Below are positions 21,571-42,369 of a stretch of 42,369 bases of DNA, one piece after another. The first letter of the stretch is position 1. The number at the start of each line of letters is the position of its first letter. Below the pieces are notes generated by a model. It was given only the letters and a program-made list of their open reading frames with translations, ran no database searches and was not told the origin of the DNA. The position numbers were made by a program, and so were the translations under genes. This DNA comes from a virus: IMG/VR virus record IMGVR_UViG_3300005293_000006, positions 1 through 42,369 of that record. One strand, given 5' to 3'.

Positions 21571-21576
21571 AAAATT

Positions 21577-22483: not shown

Positions 22484-23422
22484 ATGGCAACACTAACAAA
22501 AGCAACCGCGAAAAAAGTGACGTTCCGGGAGTTGTGCGAACAACCAGAAACAAAAGCCAAATTCAACGAAATGTTGGGTGAAAAAAACGGTGTTTCCTTC
22601 TTGGATTCCGCGATACGAATGGTTCAAAACCGACAAGACTTGGTGGATTGCGAACCGGAATCGGTATTGAATGCGGTTTCGGCCATCGCGTCACTTGATT
22701 TGATGATCGATCCGTCGTTCGGTCAAGCGTTTATCGATACTTATAAATTCAAAATAGGATTGCGTTGGTTTAATTTCGCACAGTTTCAAATCGGATATAA
22801 AGGACTTATTGAATTAGGCCATCGCACGAATTCTTTTTTGATCATCCACACGGACGACGTTCGCGATGGTGAATATAAATCGATCAACCGAATGACCGGC
22901 GAAATCGAATTCGAATGGAACAACGATCAGGACGCGCGAAAAAAACTTCCGGTGATTGGGTTTATTGCTTACTTTCAATTAACCGCCGGGTTTCGCAAAT
23001 CGATGTACATGACCGTAAAGGAAATGCAAGATCATGGAAAAAAATGGTCAAAGAATTTCCGGGATAAAGACAAAGGATGGCAAAAAGATTTTGACGGAAT
23101 GGGACGCAAAACCGTGTTGAAATTATTGTTGGATAAATACGCGCCGAAATCACGCGAAATGAAACGCGCCATTGCATTCGATCAGGCCATCATCAACGAC
23201 ATCCACGGGCAAAGTTTGAACTATATCGACAACCCGAACACAAAAGTCAAAGTCAATTTGGAAGATCAAAACAAAGCAGTCGAACGCCAACGAATTATTG
23301 ATCACATTGAAAATTCAAAAACAATTCCGAGATTGGAACAAGTTTTCGAACACATTCCGGATGAAGAAATTCGGGAATTGTATGATCAGAAAATCATCAA
23401 GTTAACAACCAAAAAGAAATAA
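22484..23422 (+). CDS. recT: RecT-family single-strand annealing recombinase
   Basis: 312 aa, usual for RecT. Characteristic features are the N-terminal helical region with 'DPSFGQAF' near residue 80, the FQIGYKGLIELGHRT segment around residues 100-115, and the MGRKTVLKLLLDKYAP stretch near residues 206-222. It anneals complementary single strands and would act with the exonuclease encoded next, as in Rac RecE/RecT or lambda Exo/Beta. C-terminal residues are charged and variable. Confidence 0.9.
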   Translation: MATLTKATAKKVTFRELCEQPETKAKFNEMLGEKNGVSFLDSAIRMVQNRQDLVDCEPESVLNAVSAIASLDLMIDPSFGQAFIDTYKFKIGLRWFNFAQFQIGYKGLIELGHRTNSFLIIHTDDVRDGEYKSINRMTGEIEFEWNNDQDARKKLPVIGFIAYFQLTAGFRKSMYMTVKEMQDHGKKWSKNFRDKDKGWQKDFDGMGRKTVLKLLLDKYAPKSREMKRAIAFDQAIINDIHGQSLNYIDNPNTKVKVNLEDQNKAVERQRIIDHIENSKTIPRLEQVFEHIPDEEIRELYDQKIIKLTTKKK

Positions 23423-26597: not shown

Positions 26598-27136
26598 ACG
26601 AAAAACAAACCATCGTGGCAATCGATCCGGGCGCGTCCGGCGGAATCGCCATATTGAACAACGGACGGATCCAAGCGGTGAAGATGCCCGAATCCGTTCA
26701 GGAAATGCAATCGTATTTCAACTACATAAACGACACCTTTCAAAACGTTGTGGTGTTCATCGAAAAAGTACAAGCCTACGGAAGTGATGATGATGACACG
26801 CCGGGAAAAAAATTCGGAATCAATAAGATGTTGGCCAATTACCAACAAGTTTTGACGGTGATCCAATTAACCGGATTCCGTTTCGTTGAAGTTTATCCGA
26901 TTTCATGGCAAACGACATTAGGATTGAAACTTCCCAAAAGTGAAGGAACGGAAACCAAGACACAAAGAAAAAACCGTTATAAAGATTACGCGCAAAAGTT
27001 GTTCCCGGAAGTGTCGGTAAATTTAAAAACGTGTGATGCACTTTGTTTGATTCAATTCGCAAAAGTGAAAATCCAACACGACATCGATTGGATCCGGGAA
27101 CGATTGCAAAATGTGAAAAAAGAAAAATTGTTTTAA
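26594..27136 (+). CDS. RuvC-like Holliday junction resolvase
   Basis: 180 aa. RNase H-like fold with acidic active-site residues Asp11 in AIDPGASGG, Glu57 in FIEKVQ and Asp148 in KTCDALC, in the order and spacing of RuvC family nucleases. It should cleave branched DNA made by recombination or replication before packaging. Last gene of the first early unit; the second promoter repeat follows immediately. Confidence 0.85.
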   Translation: MNEKQTIVAIDPGASGGIAILNNGRIQAVKMPESVQEMQSYFNYINDTFQNVVVFIEKVQAYGSDDDDTPGKKFGINKMLANYQQVLTVIQLTGFRFVEVYPISWQTTLGLKLPKSEGTETKTQRKNRYKDYAQKLFPEVSVNLKTCDALCLIQFAKVKIQHDIDWIRERLQNVKKEKLF

Positions 27137-29927: not shown

Positions 29928-30287
29928 ATGAACCTACAAACCGAAAAAGCAATTGAAAGCGTTCGTGAGGCTAACATGACGTATTATTTGAACGCGTATG
30001 GATTTGCAAAGGAATGGACGCAATTACAGATGAAACCGTTTTCATCGGAAGATTTGAAAGATGCGTTTTATAAAATAAGCGACAAACCAAGTGAACCCCG
30101 TGTTTGGGGCGCGGTTATGGTGGCATTAAGTAAAGATCGATTGATCATCCATCACGGGTTTCAGAAATACAAAAACCCGGTTGGCCATTCCAAGCCGTCA
30201 ACCGTTTGGATTTCGAAACGGTATTCAGAAAAACAAAGTGCGAACCGAAAAGCAAATTCACAAACACAAACAACCTTATTTCTATGA
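29928..30287 (+). CDS. Phage protein with 'PRVWG' motif
   Basis: 119 aa. Residues 35-105 read like a small winged-helix domain: SEDLKDAFYKI, then EPRVWGAVMVALSKDRLIIHHGF, then a wing with NPVGHSKPSTVW. This pattern recurs in phage replication or recombination regions, but I cannot name the family with confidence. It starts one base after the HNH gene and overlaps the methyltransferase start by ATGA. Confidence 0.6.
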   Translation: MNLQTEKAIESVREANMTYYLNAYGFAKEWTQLQMKPFSSEDLKDAFYKISDKPSEPRVWGAVMVALSKDRLIIHHGFQKYKNPVGHSKPSTVWISKRYSEKQSANRKANSQTQTTLFL

Positions 30288-31258
30288 ATCAAAACGATAC
30301 GATTAACACCGTGCATCATAAATGTTTTTTACAAAATAACCTTCCGGATAAATGCGCCGGTTTAATAATAGCAGACCCCCCTTATTTTGAAGTGAAAGGA
30401 AAGTTTGATTTCATTTGGGATTCATTCGAGGATTATTTAAAAGAAGTCGAAAAGTGGGCGGTTGAATGCAAACGGTTGTTAAAAGATAACGGAACTGTTT
30501 TTTGGTATGGACACGCTAAAAATATAGCATACGCACAAATAATATTTGATAAGCATTTCAATCTGATAAATTCCCTTGTGTGGGATAAGGGTTCGTTTAT
30601 GGGGTTAGAAAAAAGCGAATCTTTAAGAAGTTTTGCCCCATGTACCGAAAGAATTTTAATGTATGGAAGTAAAGCACAGGACACAACGGGATTGAAAGAA
30701 GTTGAAAAAGAATATATTGCGCCACGAAATCCGTTTGCATTAGAATTAAGAAAAGCACGCCTTAAAAAAGGGGTTAGTATTAACGAGGTTGCGGAATATG
30801 GTAAATTTTACGGTAATGTAAACCACGGCGGTTCGGTTACAAATTGGGAGCGTGGATATAATATTCCAAATGAGGAACAATGGAAAATACTATGTGATAA
30901 TTTGCCAATAGAACGCACGGAATATGAAAGTTTGCGCACGGAATATGAAAGTTTGCGAAGATATTTTGAAAACCATTTCAATCTTCAGGAAGTTTTAAAG
31001 TTTTCAAATGAAGCACAAAAAACAGGCGCTAAATATGACCATGAAACCGTTAAACCTGAAACATTAACGAGGGCGTTAATTATGACGTGTAGCCGTAAAA
31101 ATGATTTAATCATTATTCCGTTTGCCGGTAGTGGTACAGAATGCGCGATGGCAGTAAGGGAACAACGAAATTTTATTGGATATGAGATTGAAGAAAAACA
31201 CGTTATCATGTCAAACAAAAGAGTAAAGGAAAACAGTGTACAAGAAAGTTTATTTTAA
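30284..31258 (+). CDS. DNA adenine/cytosine-N4 methyltransferase (beta class)
   Basis: 324 aa from ATG 30284, which overlaps the previous stop. Catalytic motif IV DPPY at residues 31-34 precedes the AdoMet-binding FAGSGT at 280-285, the beta-class order. Between them, about residues 151-210 form an XRE-like helix-turn-helix (LRKARLKKGVSINEVAEYG ... SVTNWERG) that probably acts as, or near, the target recognition domain. Residues 212-225 are two identical TEYESLR heptads. Codon style differs from flanking genes and GATC is absent. It probably modifies phage DNA against host restriction; the recognition site cannot be read from sequence. Confidence 0.85.
   Translation: MNQNDTINTVHHKCFLQNNLPDKCAGLIIADPPYFEVKGKFDFIWDSFEDYLKEVEKWAVECKRLLKDNGTVFWYGHAKNIAYAQIIFDKHFNLINSLVWDKGSFMGLEKSESLRSFAPCTERILMYGSKAQDTTGLKEVEKEYIAPRNPFALELRKARLKKGVSINEVAEYGKFYGNVNHGGSVTNWERGYNIPNEEQWKILCDNLPIERTEYESLRTEYESLRRYFENHFNLQEVLKFSNEAQKTGAKYDHETVKPETLTRALIMTCSRKNDLIIIPFAGSGTECAMAVREQRNFIGYEIEEKHVIMSNKRVKENSVQESLF
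30914..30955 (+). repeat. Perfect 21-bp tandem duplication in the methyltransferase gene
   Basis: Two identical 21-bp units (30914-30934 and 30935-30955) in frame, each encoding seven residues, RTEYESL (equivalently TEYESLR in register). The repeat lengthens a helix after the HTH insertion by whole heptads. Slippage could change the copy number without breaking the frame. Confidence 0.9.
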
Positions 31259-31476
31259 TGGCAAAAGAAAAACGGGACATTTTGCCCATCCCGGCGGAAA
31301 CGGAAGTCGATTTGATTTTTTTGAAAGGTGATGTGGTTTGTTCAAAAACGATGCCGTATTCCGAAGCCTTGCAAGTCATCGACAATGAACATCCGGTCAT
31401 CAAAAAAAAGAACGATTGGACATACAAGATTTACCAAGTCGGATTCGCTCAATACAGTAACATTAAAAAAGTATAA
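31258..31476 (+). CDS. Small early protein, 72 aa
   Basis: 72 aa, starting on the last base of the methyltransferase stop (TAATG). Basic N-terminus, then beta-strand-like PAETEVDLIFLKGDVVCSK and a Lys-rich end with YKIYQVGFAQ. Unknown function; possibly co-translated with the methyltransferase. Confidence 0.65.
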   Translation: MAKEKRDILPIPAETEVDLIFLKGDVVCSKTMPYSEALQVIDNEHPVIKKKNDWTYKIYQVGFAQYSNIKKV

Positions 31477-31478
31477 CA

Positions 31479-31844
31479 TTGGAAGTAATAGGAAAAATTA
31501 AAGCAGTAAACGACGCGCAACAAGTTAGCGCGACATTTAAAAAACGGGAATTGGTTGTGACCACAGATGAACAATATCCGCAACACATCATGATTGAGTT
31601 CGCCAACGATAAGTGTGACGCGTTGGACGGTTACCAAGTCGGTGAACCGGTGAAAGTCCAAATCGGATTGCGTGGCAGAGAATGGGTTAACCCGCAAGGC
31701 GAAACGAAATATTTCAATTCCATTCAGGGTTGGAAAATCGAACGCACACAAGCGAAACCGGAATCGGAAAGCGCGGTTGATAAATACATGAACCCGCCCG
31801 GACAATCGGAAGAAATCAACGATTTGCCGTTCGATAAACAATAA
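31479..31844 (+). CDS. DUF3127-like protein, candidate SSB
   Basis: 121 aa from TTG 31479, two bases after the upstream stop, since no ATG fits. The N-terminal ~85 residues (MEVIGKIKAVND ... QGETKYFNSIQGWKIE) resemble DUF3127, an OB-like Bacteroidota family. A disordered polar linker leads to a tail with INDLPF, followed by DKQ, very similar to the acidic-hydrophobic tip of bacterial single-strand binding proteins. It lies among recombination and replication genes. Single-strand DNA binding and recruitment of host repair proteins are inferred. Confidence 0.7.
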   Translation: MEVIGKIKAVNDAQQVSATFKKRELVVTTDEQYPQHIMIEFANDKCDALDGYQVGEPVKVQIGLRGREWVNPQGETKYFNSIQGWKIERTQAKPESESAVDKYMNPPGQSEEINDLPFDKQ

Positions 31845-31874
31845 CATTCAAAATACGTTCGGAACAATAAAAAC

Positions 31875-31905
31875 AAACCACGACAAACATCGTGGTTTTT
31901 CTTTT
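31875..31905 (+). terminator. Intrinsic terminator
   Basis: AAACCACG (31875-31882) pairs with CGTGGTTT (31891-31898) around an 8-base loop, then a T-rich tail. It closes the transcription unit ending with the DUF3127 gene, just before promoter copy 3. Confidence 0.88.
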
Positions 31906-31917
31906 TGAAAATATTTT

Positions 31918-31967
31918 AAAAATAAATGAAAAAATGTTTTGTAGAAATAAAAAAAGATTTACATTTG
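31918..31967 (+). promoter_or_regulatory. Early promoter repeat, copy 3
   Basis: TTTG at 31938-31941, an 18-base spacer and TACATTTG at 31960-31967. The third near-identical copy of the early promoter, followed like copy 1 by AGACAAACAAAC. It drives the gene at 32001. A reading frame through this block in phase with that gene is explained by the repeat and not by coding. Confidence 0.85.
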
Positions 31968-32000
31968 TCAGACAAACAAACAATAAATAAACTTTACATT

Positions 32001-32486
32001 ATGGGATTAGACGTTACGGTGTATCAAAACATTCAAGTTTTGAACCCAACAAACAAAGAAATTGAAGACATGGATTATGATTTCATTGCATTCGTAATCG
32101 ATGACGCTTTCAAACCAAGAATTAAGAATCTTATTGAAGACGCTTTTTATAGTGGGGACAATGTTTATGATGACATAAGTTATGCGTATTCGTATCATTC
32201 ACGCTTTAGAAATATGTTAGGAATTTTGATTGGATTAAAAAACAGTGAATGGACAGACGGTGAAAAATTAAAACCGGAAATGGATTTTTTCGAACTTCTT
32301 TGGTTTGCTGATAATGAGGGGTGCATTGATTGGGAAACATCCGAAAAACTATACAATGATTTTAAACGAAATCAGGAAAAAGCAAATGAACTTTTCGGAT
32401 ATGATGAAGATTTTATATTCAATTATGAAAGATGGACAAAGGCGTTTTATTTAGGGAAGGAAAAAGGAGTTATTAAATTTCATTAA
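32001..32486 (+). CDS. Early protein beginning MGLDV, 161 aa
   Basis: 161 aa from ATG 32001, 33 bases after promoter copy 3. The upstream frame from 31926 is rejected because it reads through the promoter. Sequence features: MGLDVTVY start, an aromatic YAYSYHSRFRNML segment near residue 63, and a C-terminal acidic/aromatic stretch FADNEGCIDWETSEKLY. Similar 'MGLD' proteins occur in phages without known function. Contains no GATC. Confidence 0.7.
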   Translation: MGLDVTVYQNIQVLNPTNKEIEDMDYDFIAFVIDDAFKPRIKNLIEDAFYSGDNVYDDISYAYSYHSRFRNMLGILIGLKNSEWTDGEKLKPEMDFFELLWFADNEGCIDWETSEKLYNDFKRNQEKANELFGYDEDFIFNYERWTKAFYLGKEKGVIKFH

Positions 32487-32497
32487 CAAACAATCAC

Positions 32498-33313
32498 ATG
32501 ATAACATTTACAAAACCAATCGTTTTTTTTGATTTGGAAACCACGGGTGTTTCCGTAGGGACTGACCGCATCGTTCAGATAGCCATCGAAAAACTTTTTC
32601 CCGACGGTTCCACGGAAAGCAAATCGATGTTAATCAATCCGGGAATGCCGATTCCAAAAGAAGCGTCGGACATCCACGGAATCACGGATGACATGGTAAA
32701 GGACGCGCCGACGTTCGCCCGAATCGCGAAATCCTTAAAAGAAAAATTTGATGGAAGCGACATTGCGGGATTTAATTCGGATGAATTCGACATCCCGTTG
32801 TTGCAAACGGAATTTGACCGGTGCGAAATACAATTCCCAAATGAAGGGACGTTCACAGTTGATATGTACACCATCGAAAAATTCGTCAATTCACATAAAC
32901 TTGGTGAAACATTCAAACGTTATGAAGGTAAAGAATTGGTGAACGCCCATGATGCGACGGCGGATGTTTACGCGACACGCGTGGTGTTCGGCCATCAGGT
33001 TCCGAAACTCTTTGAAATGATGAAAGAAGCCATGGAAGATTTTCAGGGCGAAATCAACCCGGAATCCATTAGTAAATTCTTTAAAGGGGATAAAAAACGT
33101 TTTGATTTCGCGGGCAAAATGTACATTAAAGACGGGATTGTGTATTGGAATTTCAGTGACCACATGGACACGCCGGTCATGGAAAAAGCGAATCGCGGTT
33201 TTTTGAATTGGGTGTTAACAAAAGACTTTCCGCCACAGACGAAAAAGAAAATCCGGGAATTGTTATCCGATGAACTTGAAAAAAATAAAAGCAACCAAAT
33301 AGATTTGATATAA
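32498..33313 (+). CDS. DnaQ-like 3'-5' exonuclease
   Basis: 271 aa. DEDDh motifs: Exo I FFDLETTG with Asp12 and Glu14, Exo II FNSDEFDIPLL with Asp98, Exo III HDATADVY with His151 and Asp156. It should remove nucleotides 3' to 5', for proofreading, single-strand trimming or degradation of host DNA. Residues beyond 190 form a C-terminal extension with a beta-rich YIKDGIVYWNFSDH segment. The gene overlaps the next by one base. Confidence 0.87.
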   Translation: MITFTKPIVFFDLETTGVSVGTDRIVQIAIEKLFPDGSTESKSMLINPGMPIPKEASDIHGITDDMVKDAPTFARIAKSLKEKFDGSDIAGFNSDEFDIPLLQTEFDRCEIQFPNEGTFTVDMYTIEKFVNSHKLGETFKRYEGKELVNAHDATADVYATRVVFGHQVPKLFEMMKEAMEDFQGEINPESISKFFKGDKKRFDFAGKMYIKDGIVYWNFSDHMDTPVMEKANRGFLNWVLTKDFPPQTKKKIRELLSDELEKNKSNQIDLI

Positions 33314-33744
33314 TGGAAACACTACAATTAAACCATTTAGCGGGATATTTACCGCACGATTTACAATGTATGTTCCTTAGCGAACCAGATAGTAAAGAAC
33401 CAAATATTAAAACTTTGCACGGAATTGAAAAAGGATTTGAAAGCGATATAGTTATTGGAATGTTTGACGAATTTGATAATTCTGAATTTAATTATTTCAA
33501 ACCAATCTTACGCCCTTTATCCGACCTGACAAAAGAGATTGAAGTGGACGGGGAAAAGTTTGTGCCGATTGATTGGATTGAAAAAAACAACCCGACTAAA
33601 GACGAAATGCCGTGCGCTATAATGTTAAATGGTTTTGTTGAAATGCATTATTACAGAGATTATGAAAAATTATTTGAATGGCACTTCGACGTTTTCGGAT
33701 TGATTGAAAAAGGATTGGCAATTGATATAAATACTTTGAAATAA
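33313..33744 (+). CDS. Early protein of unknown function, 143 aa
   Basis: 143 aa, starting on the last base of the exonuclease stop. The N-terminus LNHLAGYLPHDLQCMF and an aromatic C-terminus (YYRDYEKLFEWHFDVFGLIE) are typical of a group of small Bacteroidota phage proteins of unknown role. Codon style is more AT-rich than in structural genes. Probably translationally coupled to the exonuclease. Confidence 0.65.
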   Translation: METLQLNHLAGYLPHDLQCMFLSEPDSKEPNIKTLHGIEKGFESDIVIGMFDEFDNSEFNYFKPILRPLSDLTKEIEVDGEKFVPIDWIEKNNPTKDEMPCAIMLNGFVEMHYYRDYEKLFEWHFDVFGLIEKGLAIDINTLK

Positions 33745-33990
33745 ATGGCACGATTAGACAAAGAAAAAGAAGCGCGCTTGCAACCGAAACGGATTCAAAC
33801 CGCCATCGATGAACTTCAAAAATTGGGGTTTGAGATTTACAACATCACAACCACGTCCATTCAATTTCAGTTTAAAGGGGAACGCGTGGTGTTCTTTCCT
33901 TATTCGGGATGGCATACGGGCAAAACAATAGTTGATGGGCGCGGATTAGATAAACTTTTAAATCAGATTAGAAATGGCGACAACTTGTAA
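33745..33990 (+). CDS. Small early protein, 81 aa
   Basis: 81 aa, beginning directly after the preceding stop. Basic N-terminal helix, a beta region with IQFQFKGERVVFFPYSGWHTG, and a C-terminal DGRGLDKLLNQI helix. This pattern (strands with 'FFPYSGW', then 'GxGxxxLL') is seen in small phage proteins of unknown function. It overlaps the next gene by 17 bases. Confidence 0.65.
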   Translation: MARLDKEKEARLQPKRIQTAIDELQKLGFEIYNITTTSIQFQFKGERVVFFPYSGWHTGKTIVDGRGLDKLLNQIRNGDNL

Positions 33991-34168
33991 ATGTCCACCG
34001 GTGGAAACGCTTAAAAAAGTAACGTTGAAAAGTTGCCAACCGAATTTAAAGCCGTTAACCAAGGAACAAATTTTGGAACTTCAAAATAAAATGGTTGAAC
34101 CTAAAAAAACGGATTTCGAAAAAGTGTCCGAATTATTAATCAAAAAAGCACATCGAGTAATTTTATAA
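33974..34168 (+). CDS. Small early protein, 64 aa
   Basis: 64 aa, starting inside the end of the previous gene. Three cysteines near the N-terminus (CKCPPVET ... KSCQ), then a Lys/Leu-rich amphipathic helix. Unknown function. It precedes the large coiled-coil gene by 16 bases. Confidence 0.55.
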   Translation: MATTCKCPPVETLKKVTLKSCQPNLKPLTKEQILELQNKMVEPKKTDFEKVSELLIKKAHRVIL

Positions 34169-34184
34169 CAAACAAATAACAAAC

Positions 34185-35675
34185 ATGAAAAATCAAGAAA
34201 ACGAAAAAAAAGAATTCAATTTGATGCAAGTGGACAACACGCAATTGGTTCACGTTTCAGAATGGGAAAAGAAATTGAAAGAATTGGTCAAAGCGAATCC
34301 TTATGTAAAAATCACCGACAAAAAATCGTTGGCATTGGCAAAGGAACGAAAAGCCAATTTGCGGGAAGCGCGGTTGGAATTGCGCACGTCCGGAAAATCG
34401 GAAAGTCAGGAATCCATGTTGTTGAACAAATTGAAAAACATCACGGCATTTGTGAAAGACACCATCGACAAATTGGTTGACATTCCAAAAACCCCGGAAG
34501 ATAAACAAGACATTGAAATCAAACGATTCGAACAAGTGTTGGCGGATCTAAAAGCGGAAGAAGATGAAAAAGAAGAAAAACGAACCAAGGCGATCCGGGA
34601 TGAAATTGATCGTGTGAAATTGGAATTGGCAACCGTTACAGAAAACGCAACATTCAAAACATTGGGTTCCGTTCAAGAAGCATTCGACAAAGTAAAGGTG
34701 ACCGACGTGGAATTGATGGAATTATCGTTCCTATTTGACGAAATGATCATCGAACAACAAAAGATATTGGATGATAAAATTGAAGCCGTTAAACAAGCGG
34801 AAAACGATCGGTTGGAAAAACTGTCAAAAGATCGGGAAGCAATCATCAATCAAATGATCGTGGATGGTCAAGAAGTCGTGGACGGAATTGAAGCCAATCC
34901 GGTTGAAGAAAGATTGATCAAACAAATCATTTCCGGGATCTTTCAAACGTTGACCGGTTATGAAATTGAATTCGATGCGGATTCACTTAAAAAGATTGAT
35001 GAAGAAAAAGAAAAAGCGATCGGAAAGGTCAAAGATAAATTTGAAAAAATCCACAACGATCAAGTTCAGGAAACGAAAAACCGTTTGGTTGAAGTGCGTG
35101 AAGGGTTGTTGGATTTGATCTTTCAAACCAATGTTTCCAACCATGAAGATAATGAAGCGGTGATCAAAAAAGCATTGAACCAAGAAGTCATGGAAGATGT
35201 GTTGGAAGATTTCGAAAAAATGAAAGTGATGGTGGCGAATTCATGGAAACGAAAAATGTCCGAGTTATCCGCCGACATCGAAAAAGAAGAAAAAAGATTG
35301 TCCGATCAATTAAATGACCGAATCAAAACCATTCAGGAATTAGGAATGACAACGGATGATGATCAAGAATGGAACGGTTTCGATTGCAAAGTTTTTGTGG
35401 ATGATCTTTTCAACTATGATGGACATGAATTTGATGGATTGGTTGAAGAAATCAAACAAGCGAAATCCGATGATGAAGCCGAACAAGAACGTCAAACATT
35501 AATCCGCCCGGACAAAATCACAATGGTTGATGCGTTCGTTCAGGTGAAAAACAAAATAAGCGAAATCGAACCGGATGACTTTGTGACGGAAGGAATGTTT
35601 GTTCATTTCGTTGAATTGAAAAAACAACTAATGGAATTATGTGATTCTAATATCGAAACAATTAACAAACTATAA
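34185..35675 (+). CDS. Large coiled-coil protein (DUF1351-like)
   Basis: 496 aa, almost entirely helical and charged, with long Glu/Lys/Asp coiled coils. The first ~120 residues (KITDKKSLALAKERKANL followed by R-x-x-LRTSGK) resemble DUF1351-type phage proteins found beside recombination genes. The remainder is elongated helix without a catalytic motif. The GATC-free block ends inside this gene near residue 121. A recombination-associated or structural role is possible but not shown. Confidence 0.6.
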   Translation: MKNQENEKKEFNLMQVDNTQLVHVSEWEKKLKELVKANPYVKITDKKSLALAKERKANLREARLELRTSGKSESQESMLLNKLKNITAFVKDTIDKLVDIPKTPEDKQDIEIKRFEQVLADLKAEEDEKEEKRTKAIRDEIDRVKLELATVTENATFKTLGSVQEAFDKVKVTDVELMELSFLFDEMIIEQQKILDDKIEAVKQAENDRLEKLSKDREAIINQMIVDGQEVVDGIEANPVEERLIKQIISGIFQTLTGYEIEFDADSLKKIDEEKEKAIGKVKDKFEKIHNDQVQETKNRLVEVREGLLDLIFQTNVSNHEDNEAVIKKALNQEVMEDVLEDFEKMKVMVANSWKRKMSELSADIEKEEKRLSDQLNDRIKTIQELGMTTDDDQEWNGFDCKVFVDDLFNYDGHEFDGLVEEIKQAKSDDEAEQERQTLIRPDKITMVDAFVQVKNKISEIEPDDFVTEGMFVHFVELKKQLMELCDSNIETINKL

Positions 35676-35677
35676 AA

Positions 35678-36025
35678 ATGGCAATTACAGACACACCAAC
35701 AAAATATTTCGTTTATAGAAATATGCAAGCCAAACACGGGATCAAATTAAGTGAAGATCAATTGGACACGATCGAAGAAATTTATGTTCTTGACAAAAAA
35801 CAAAACATCTTCAAAATGGGAATTTATAGATTGATCAACGCGGTGTTTGCGTTTTTCTTTGGAATCATTTTGTTGATCTTCCGAAACAAAGAATTCACTA
35901 AATGGATGTTTATCGGGATGATGTTCATTTTCTTGGTGTACAATATCATTCAGATTTGGAACACCTATTTGGAACATAAAAGCGTAAAAGTAAAGCAACC
36001 GAAAACCGACGTGAATGGAATTTAA
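35678..36025 (+). CDS. Two-segment membrane protein
   Basis: 115 aa. Soluble N-terminal ~45 residues, then two hydrophobic segments around residues 47-65 (INAVFAFFFGIILLIF) and 74-92 (FIGMMFIFLVYNIIQIW), then a basic tail. Unknown role at the inner membrane. It begins 2 bases after the coiled-coil gene. Confidence 0.65.
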   Translation: MAITDTPTKYFVYRNMQAKHGIKLSEDQLDTIEEIYVLDKKQNIFKMGIYRLINAVFAFFFGIILLIFRNKEFTKWMFIGMMFIFLVYNIIQIWNTYLEHKSVKVKQPKTDVNGI

Positions 36026-42170: not shown

Positions 42171-42344
42171 ATGTCAACAAAGAAAGAAACGGCCAAATTA
42201 AAGGTCAAAGGGAAGAAAGACGCGAAACCGGTGGAGTTTACAATGAGTGAAGCCAACAAACTATTGAAATTACCAAATTGTCAATGGGAATTGGCCGATG
42301 AAAAGTTGGAATGGAACGGAATCGAAATCGCTAAAAAAGGTTAA
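42171..42344 (+). CDS. Small protein upstream of portal, 57 aa
   Basis: 57 aa, complete before the contig end. Basic N-terminal ~20 residues, then VEFTMSEANKLLKLPNCQWELADEKLEW and a final IEIAKKG. Such proteins sit beside the tube-like gene in related layouts and may be an assembly partner; that is inference. The portal ATG follows 3 bases later across the circular junction. Confidence 0.6.
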   Translation: MSTKKETAKLKVKGKKDAKPVEFTMSEANKLLKLPNCQWELADEKLEWNGIEIAKKG

Positions 42345-42369
42345 AACATGATATTGAACGAAACATCGG
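42330..42369. repeat. Terminal direct repeat, copy 2 (contig closure)
   Basis: Exact copy of positions 1-40. It contains the last five codons of the 57-aa gene (stop at 42342-42344) and a second copy of the portal start codon at 42348. Joining the ends gives a continuous gene order with a 3-base gap between the two genes, which supports circular closure. Confidence 0.9.

Follow-up and report, generated by a model that had tools for sequence, protein, structure and literature searches.

Genome-wide avoidance of the tetranucleotide GATC has been reported for phages. All 46 phages with hosts encoding GATC-cutting Type IIM enzymes under-represent the word (PMC6286503), and several haloviruses are wholly without it (PMC7230728, PMC3622292). 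Several GATC-free phages carry N6 methyltransferases, and the absence has been taken as restriction avoidance (PMC6286503). A GATC methyltransferase (M.FpsJIV) with no partner nuclease is common among strains of Flavobacterium psychrophilum (PMC11837570). A single GATC-free block inside a GATC-rich phage was not found in the papers searched. Such a block is described here in the virus record IMGVR_UViG_3300005293_000006, analyzed over its full length of 42,369 nucleotides (the window). It spans positions 30147..34544, between a GATC at 30143 and the next at 34545, and is probably a recombination tract, imported by homologous recombination from an unsampled GATC-depleted sister phage.

GATC is absent or nearly so, as in the block, from Lillamyvirus (hemulen6-1, lillamy9-1; 2 GATC in each genome), from the haloviruses HF1/HF2 and PH1, and from the contigs L028 and G005. 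Observed counts, with Markov expectations in brackets, were 0 (29) for L028, 2 (70) for hemulen6-1 and 0 (37) for L065, all outside the family of the window, and 1 (29 expected) for G005. Phages nearly devoid of GATC are frequent among the relatives of the block's genes. GATC-free phages avoid the word genome-wide and usually avoid several palindromes (CGCG, CTAG and CCGG in Lillamyvirus), whereas in the window the avoidance concerns GATC only and about 10% of the genome. A second described system is homeologous phage mosaicism via phage recombinases (PMC2327257, PMC3945230), in which junctions between diverged relatives fall within genes, as the borders do in the window. Like recombinase-bearing mosaic phages, the window has a RecT-like gene (22484-23422), 65% identical to the RecT of Flavobacterium phage vB_FspS_tant8-1 (Tantvirus; hereafter tant8-1). 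The tract in the window differs in being recognized by a missing word and not by a match to a donor.

The first 41 bases of the window are identical to the last 41 (1-41 and 42329-42369), which makes the contig a closed circle of 42,328 bp. It is a complete phage genome, and its gene order and proteins place it in the Tantvirus/Fpv5 family as a Tantvirus-like siphovirus of Flavobacterium type. It is collinear with tant8-1, with 67% identity for the portal, 76% for the 205-aa major head protein and 71% for the terminase. Scans of IMG/VR yielded further family members (G001, G006, G007, G008, G009, G010, G011 and L033), and the family splits sharply into GATC-rich and GATC-poor members. The GATC-rich phages tant8-1 (5.2 per kb), G001 (5.3), G006 (9.0), G007 (8.7), G008 (13.5) and G009 (9.8) resemble the window in gene order and in most proteins (40-79% identical), and over-represent GATC as it does. 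Unlike the window, they lack a GATC-free block and an N6/N4 methyltransferase; a C5 enzyme is present in G008 and G009. The GATC-poor side comprises the Flavobacterium phage Fpv5/FPSV group (Fpv5, 1.1 per kb), G010 (1.4), G011 (0.61) and L033 (0.8). These share the capsid family of the window, but their proteins are generally further from it and their GATC depletion extends over the whole available sequence instead of one block.

An exact count gave 367 GATC in the whole window, 2.5 times the 145 expected from base composition. The 4402 bp from the site at 30143 to that at 34545 hold no other, in agreement with the sequence-only reading, which had found none there by eye. After this gap in size come gaps of 763, 663 and 556 bp, and gaps elsewhere in the window fit an exponential distribution (mean 102.5, standard deviation (SD) 102.0). 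The GATC-free gap equals 38.5 mean spacings, taken over the whole window, and under the exponential it has p ~8e-17, corrected for the number of gaps. It was the most extreme of 1108 palindrome-by-locus tests on all fetched phage loci (log10 p -15.9; next, -7.5). The density falls from 9.67 per kb to zero and returns to the full rate, and each edge can be placed within about 100 bp. At the outside rate about 43 sites would be expected in the block, against the roughly 49 estimated earlier; a Markov model gives 15.3. Of the 16 palindromic tetramers, GATC alone is missing from the block relative to expectation, and the others are normal.

One explanation would be chance or codon usage, with a block poor in Asp, Ile and Ser contexts. 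ATC and GAT codons are somewhat fewer in the block. However, shuffling of synonymous codons in the block genes, which the sequence-only reading had named as a test able to refute its claim, gave 12.3 ± 2.7 GATC and at least 3 in each of 2000 trials, so that the claim was not refuted. Recoding with codon frequencies taken from outside the block gave 20.4 ± 3.7. None of 120 dipeptides that permit GATC uses it in the block, compared with 343 of 1127 (30%) outside; the product of the unused fractions, with sites taken as independent, is ~1e-19. Codon shuffling thus led us to reject this cause of the gap, which is extremely improbable, and the avoidance in the block is beyond Markov and codon expectation. 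The earlier observation that Asp-Arg(CGN) is spelled with GAC inside (2 of 2) and with GAT outside (29 of 34) was correct, with a tiny sample. Outside the block, GATC is over-represented (343 sites, codon-shuffled 236 ± 10). It also exceeds the Markov expectation in G006-G009, and despite this over-representation no GATC methyltransferase was recognized in the window, G006, G007, G008 or G009.

The gene content of the block sets it apart from the close relatives. A predicted N6/N4 DNA methyltransferase is encoded at 30308..31258 (PF01555, E=1e-34; weak HTH_3) and contains no GATC; all genes of the block and its borders, like the terminator and promoter in the block, are on the + strand. PF01555 methyltransferases occur in three GATC-poor or GATC-free sequences, G011, L033 and L028, and in none of the GATC-rich relatives. 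The nearest relative of the block enzyme (80%) is encoded by L028, a contig whose 15.6 kb have no GATC, and no closer one was found in GTDB genomes. At 31479..31844 lies a DUF3127 protein of single-strand-binding type (PF11325, E=4e-29). It stands where tant8-1, G001, G006, G007 and G008, all GATC-rich, have a PF00436 single-strand-binding protein (SSB). No PF00436 SSB was found in the window, nor in the 13-kb fragment G009. The two families are different and unrelated, and in this sample DUF3127 occurs besides the window only in the GATC-poor phages Fpv5, L033, hemulen6-1 and L028. Within the family, Fpv5 and L033 share the DUF3127 SSB with the window, and G011 and L033 share the PF01555 methyltransferase. 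Compared with its close relatives, the window thus shows an orthologue replacement (DUF3127 for PF00436) together with the addition of a methyltransferase.

The order of motifs in the methyltransferase is that of the beta class, with DPPY ahead of FAGSGTE and a helix-turn-helix-like segment in the variable middle region. Among solved structures the closest were CcrM and MboIIA; DpnA matched weakly. The L028 enzyme shares the variable region and sits in a contig without GATC, and for this reason the block methyltransferase is predicted to be unlikely to act on GATC. The same reasoning has been used against GATC as the methyltransferase target in HF1-group viruses (PMC7230728). An intrinsically GATC-free gene was rejected, as the genes of relatives contain the word (2 in L031, 3 in L032, 1 each in L033 and L034). 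The hinge of the enzyme carries a perfect 21-bp tandem duplication (30914-30955; 7-aa unit like RTEYESL), and homologues differ in the number of hinge units, with about five in L034. In the GATC-rich G008, a C5-cytosine methyltransferase gene lies just upstream of the homologue of the block's 72-aa gene, the slot of the N6/N4 enzyme in the window, and forms the largest GATC gap of that genome (10603-11596 of locus L058; 993 bp). The slot upstream of the 72-aa gene seems to take in differing methyltransferases.

These observations bear on a native origin of the block, in which selection would have purged GATC in place because the block holds the methyltransferase gene and genes of early replication; this stretch might, for example, have to withstand cleavage or remain unmethylated until the phage is able to act. 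The only methyltransferase found is indeed in the block (the block and some of the remaining genes were scanned for families; PF00145 was searched through the whole window and had no match), other word usage and the promoter of the block are the phage's own, and the C5 enzyme of G008 lies in its largest GATC gap. However, the borders disregard genes and transcription units, methyltransferase relatives contain GATC, GATC is an unlikely target of the enzyme given its L028 counterpart, and the exchange of SSB families requires import regardless. Sequences one step from GATC are also not in excess (213 in the block, 217 ± 18 outside); about 243-260 would be expected had some 40 sites been point-mutated in place, a mild shortfall of ~2 SD. 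Purging in place is therefore quite unlikely. Its specific form, a selected GATC-free island shielding the genes for the methyltransferase and early replication against cutting at GATC, is very doubtful. In G008, the GATC gap at the C5 methyltransferase of the corresponding slot would be a possible parallel. If the island were real, one long fragment would survive restriction and could modify or rescue incoming or co-infecting genomes.

The borders of the block were compared with the gene structure. Both fall inside genes, as noted earlier. The left border, with the last GATC at 30143, is in a 119-aa gene (29928..30287; tblastn 53% over 118 aa to tant8-1), which is homologous over its full length to tant8-1 and G001, so that no foreign gene end marks this border. 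Its identity to tant8-1 is 47% before the border and 63% after it. The right border lies 120 codons into a 496-aa gene (34185..35675; coiled-coil according to the sequence-only reading), beyond which GATC is back at the full rate, with 16 sites in the remainder. Breakpoints at 30.15 and 34.54 kb had been suggested for comparison with related phages; identity shifts were found near both, and a clean phylogenetic breakpoint was not shown.

Evidence for a separate history of the block also came from its DnaQ-like 3'-5' exonuclease (RNase_T, 32498..33313; PF00929, E=1e-20). This gene has no GATC in the window and 4-18 in homologues of GATC-rich relatives. Twenty GATC of the relatives fall at dipeptides conserved in the window, and all 20 are synonymously respelled there. 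In the exonuclease tree the window groups with tant8-1/G001 (support 82), while trees of rusA and a 131-aa gene place it with G006/G007. An Fpv5-like donor of the exonuclease was not supported, the gene being nearer tant8-1. Among all segments of 4.4 kb in the window, the one at 29.8-34.2 kb deviates most in synonymous codon usage with Asp and Ile left out.

Several results weigh against import. With GATC masked, the 3-mer and 4-mer signature of the block is nearest to its own genome and within the range of control segments. A promoter-like repeat, TTTTG followed by a private spacer and TACATTTG, occurs in three near-identical copies at 21574, 27132 and 31916. The third, in the block as described earlier (31916..31967; identified by sequence match to the other copies), is 96% identical over 46 nt to the outside copy at 27132, and the repeat had no match in 2.9 million viral contigs. 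Border signals are weak and mixed: the exonuclease is tant-like, G006-like sequence is seen in the 5' portion of the 496-aa gene that belongs to the block and in several flanks, and identity along both border genes shifts at about the right places but in inconsistent directions. The nearest known phage differs among the block genes, with no single one for all. No donor or closer block was found in IMG/VR, INPHARED or GTDB genomes, and a close GATC-depleted sister has to be assumed. Scans with the 496-aa gene or the terminase gave no closer relatives, nor did GTDB genomes contain a closer capsid.

Because the block has the word signature of the phage and its private promoter, the donor must be a close sister and not a distant phage; alternatively, the promoter may have been homogenized after import. 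Import as a whole from an L028- or Lillamyvirus-like phage was rejected. Those phages avoid CGCG and CTAG and differ in word signature, and the block has normal CGCG and the signature of its own genome. The chance of a GATC-free tract of 4.4 kb is 0.015-0.07 for a donor at the level of G011 and about 0.75 for a Lillamyvirus-like donor.

A strain-chimeric contig was also considered, in which the assembler would have switched between GATC-rich and GATC-poor sisters at two shared stretches. Sister strains assembled together would give the same picture as an import. The window is an IMG/VR contig, its 41-bp end overlap suggests k-mer assembly, and a close sister, as import requires, is just what could co-assemble. 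GATC-free L028 and GATC-rich G006 share a sample number, so such phages do co-occur. However, both border genes are intact and homologous over their full length, the assembler would have had to switch cleanly twice, and the contig closes as a single circle. A chimera is thus considered unlikely.

Under the preferred reading of homologous import, a GATC-rich phage of the Tantvirus/Fpv5 family would have swapped about 4.4 kb with a GATC-depleted sister by homologous or homeologous recombination, in what we infer to be a single event. The ends of the exchange would have fallen inside two conserved genes with both reading frames kept, and the tract would have introduced the N6/N4 methyltransferase and put the DUF3127 protein in place of the usual PF00436 SSB. 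The donor would have had few or no GATC, probably since its hosts cut or otherwise targeted the word. The recipient lineage tolerates and even over-represents it. Recombination with a phage kept free of GATC by host restriction was the original proposal from the sequence. This proposal is largely supported: a GATC-depleted source fits best, with the SSB and methyltransferase otherwise present only in GATC-poor phages among those sampled, but the donor itself was not found; restriction as the cause of depletion is known for other phages and is presumed here.

The remaining features of the block are small genes and a terminator. The 72-aa gene (31258..31476) has counterparts at 39-48% in GATC-rich relatives. 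A hairpin with a T run (ACCACGACAAACATCGTGGTTTTT; 31876..31902), recognized by eye, is a probable intrinsic terminator before the promoter. An open reading frame (ORF) of up to 186 aa (31926..32486) matches no Pfam family; because the promoter overlaps the start listed for it, the true start is probably downstream. The 143-aa gene (33313..33744) belongs to a family widespread in phages of Bacteroidota (Cellulophaga and others) and absent from close relatives. The 81-aa gene (33745..33990) has homologues in tant8-1 (55%) and G001 (61%), where it precedes the exonuclease; in the window it follows it. No relative was found for a 64-aa ORF (33974..34168). In total, the 119-, 72-, 81- and 496-aa genes and the exonuclease gene have counterparts in GATC-rich relatives, and none were found there for the methyltransferase, DUF3127, 186-, 143- and 64-aa genes. 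No RNA family matched the block region. TTTT and TTTA are absent from about 1.2-1.5 kb within 34161-35712, where the coding strand of the 496-aa gene is A-rich, which is probably composition only. In G006, TCGA is missing over 2.4 kb (222-2628 of locus L052) and frequent elsewhere (log10 p -6.5 to -7.5), a possible second single-word desert.

The phenomenon is of a known kind, ordinary phage mosaicism together with restriction-site avoidance, seen unusually cleanly through a missing four-letter word. Such avoidance is generally quantified for whole genomes; in this phage it serves as a local marker of a recombination tract for which no known donor is needed, and the missing word places the tract borders to about 100 bp. 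Scans of phage genomes for single-word deserts offer a cheap means to detect recent exchanges between phages of differently restricting hosts. For the Tantvirus/Fpv5 family, the finding suggests that close relatives differ in their tolerance of GATC, and that this trait can be exchanged between phages together with a methyltransferase and an SSB.

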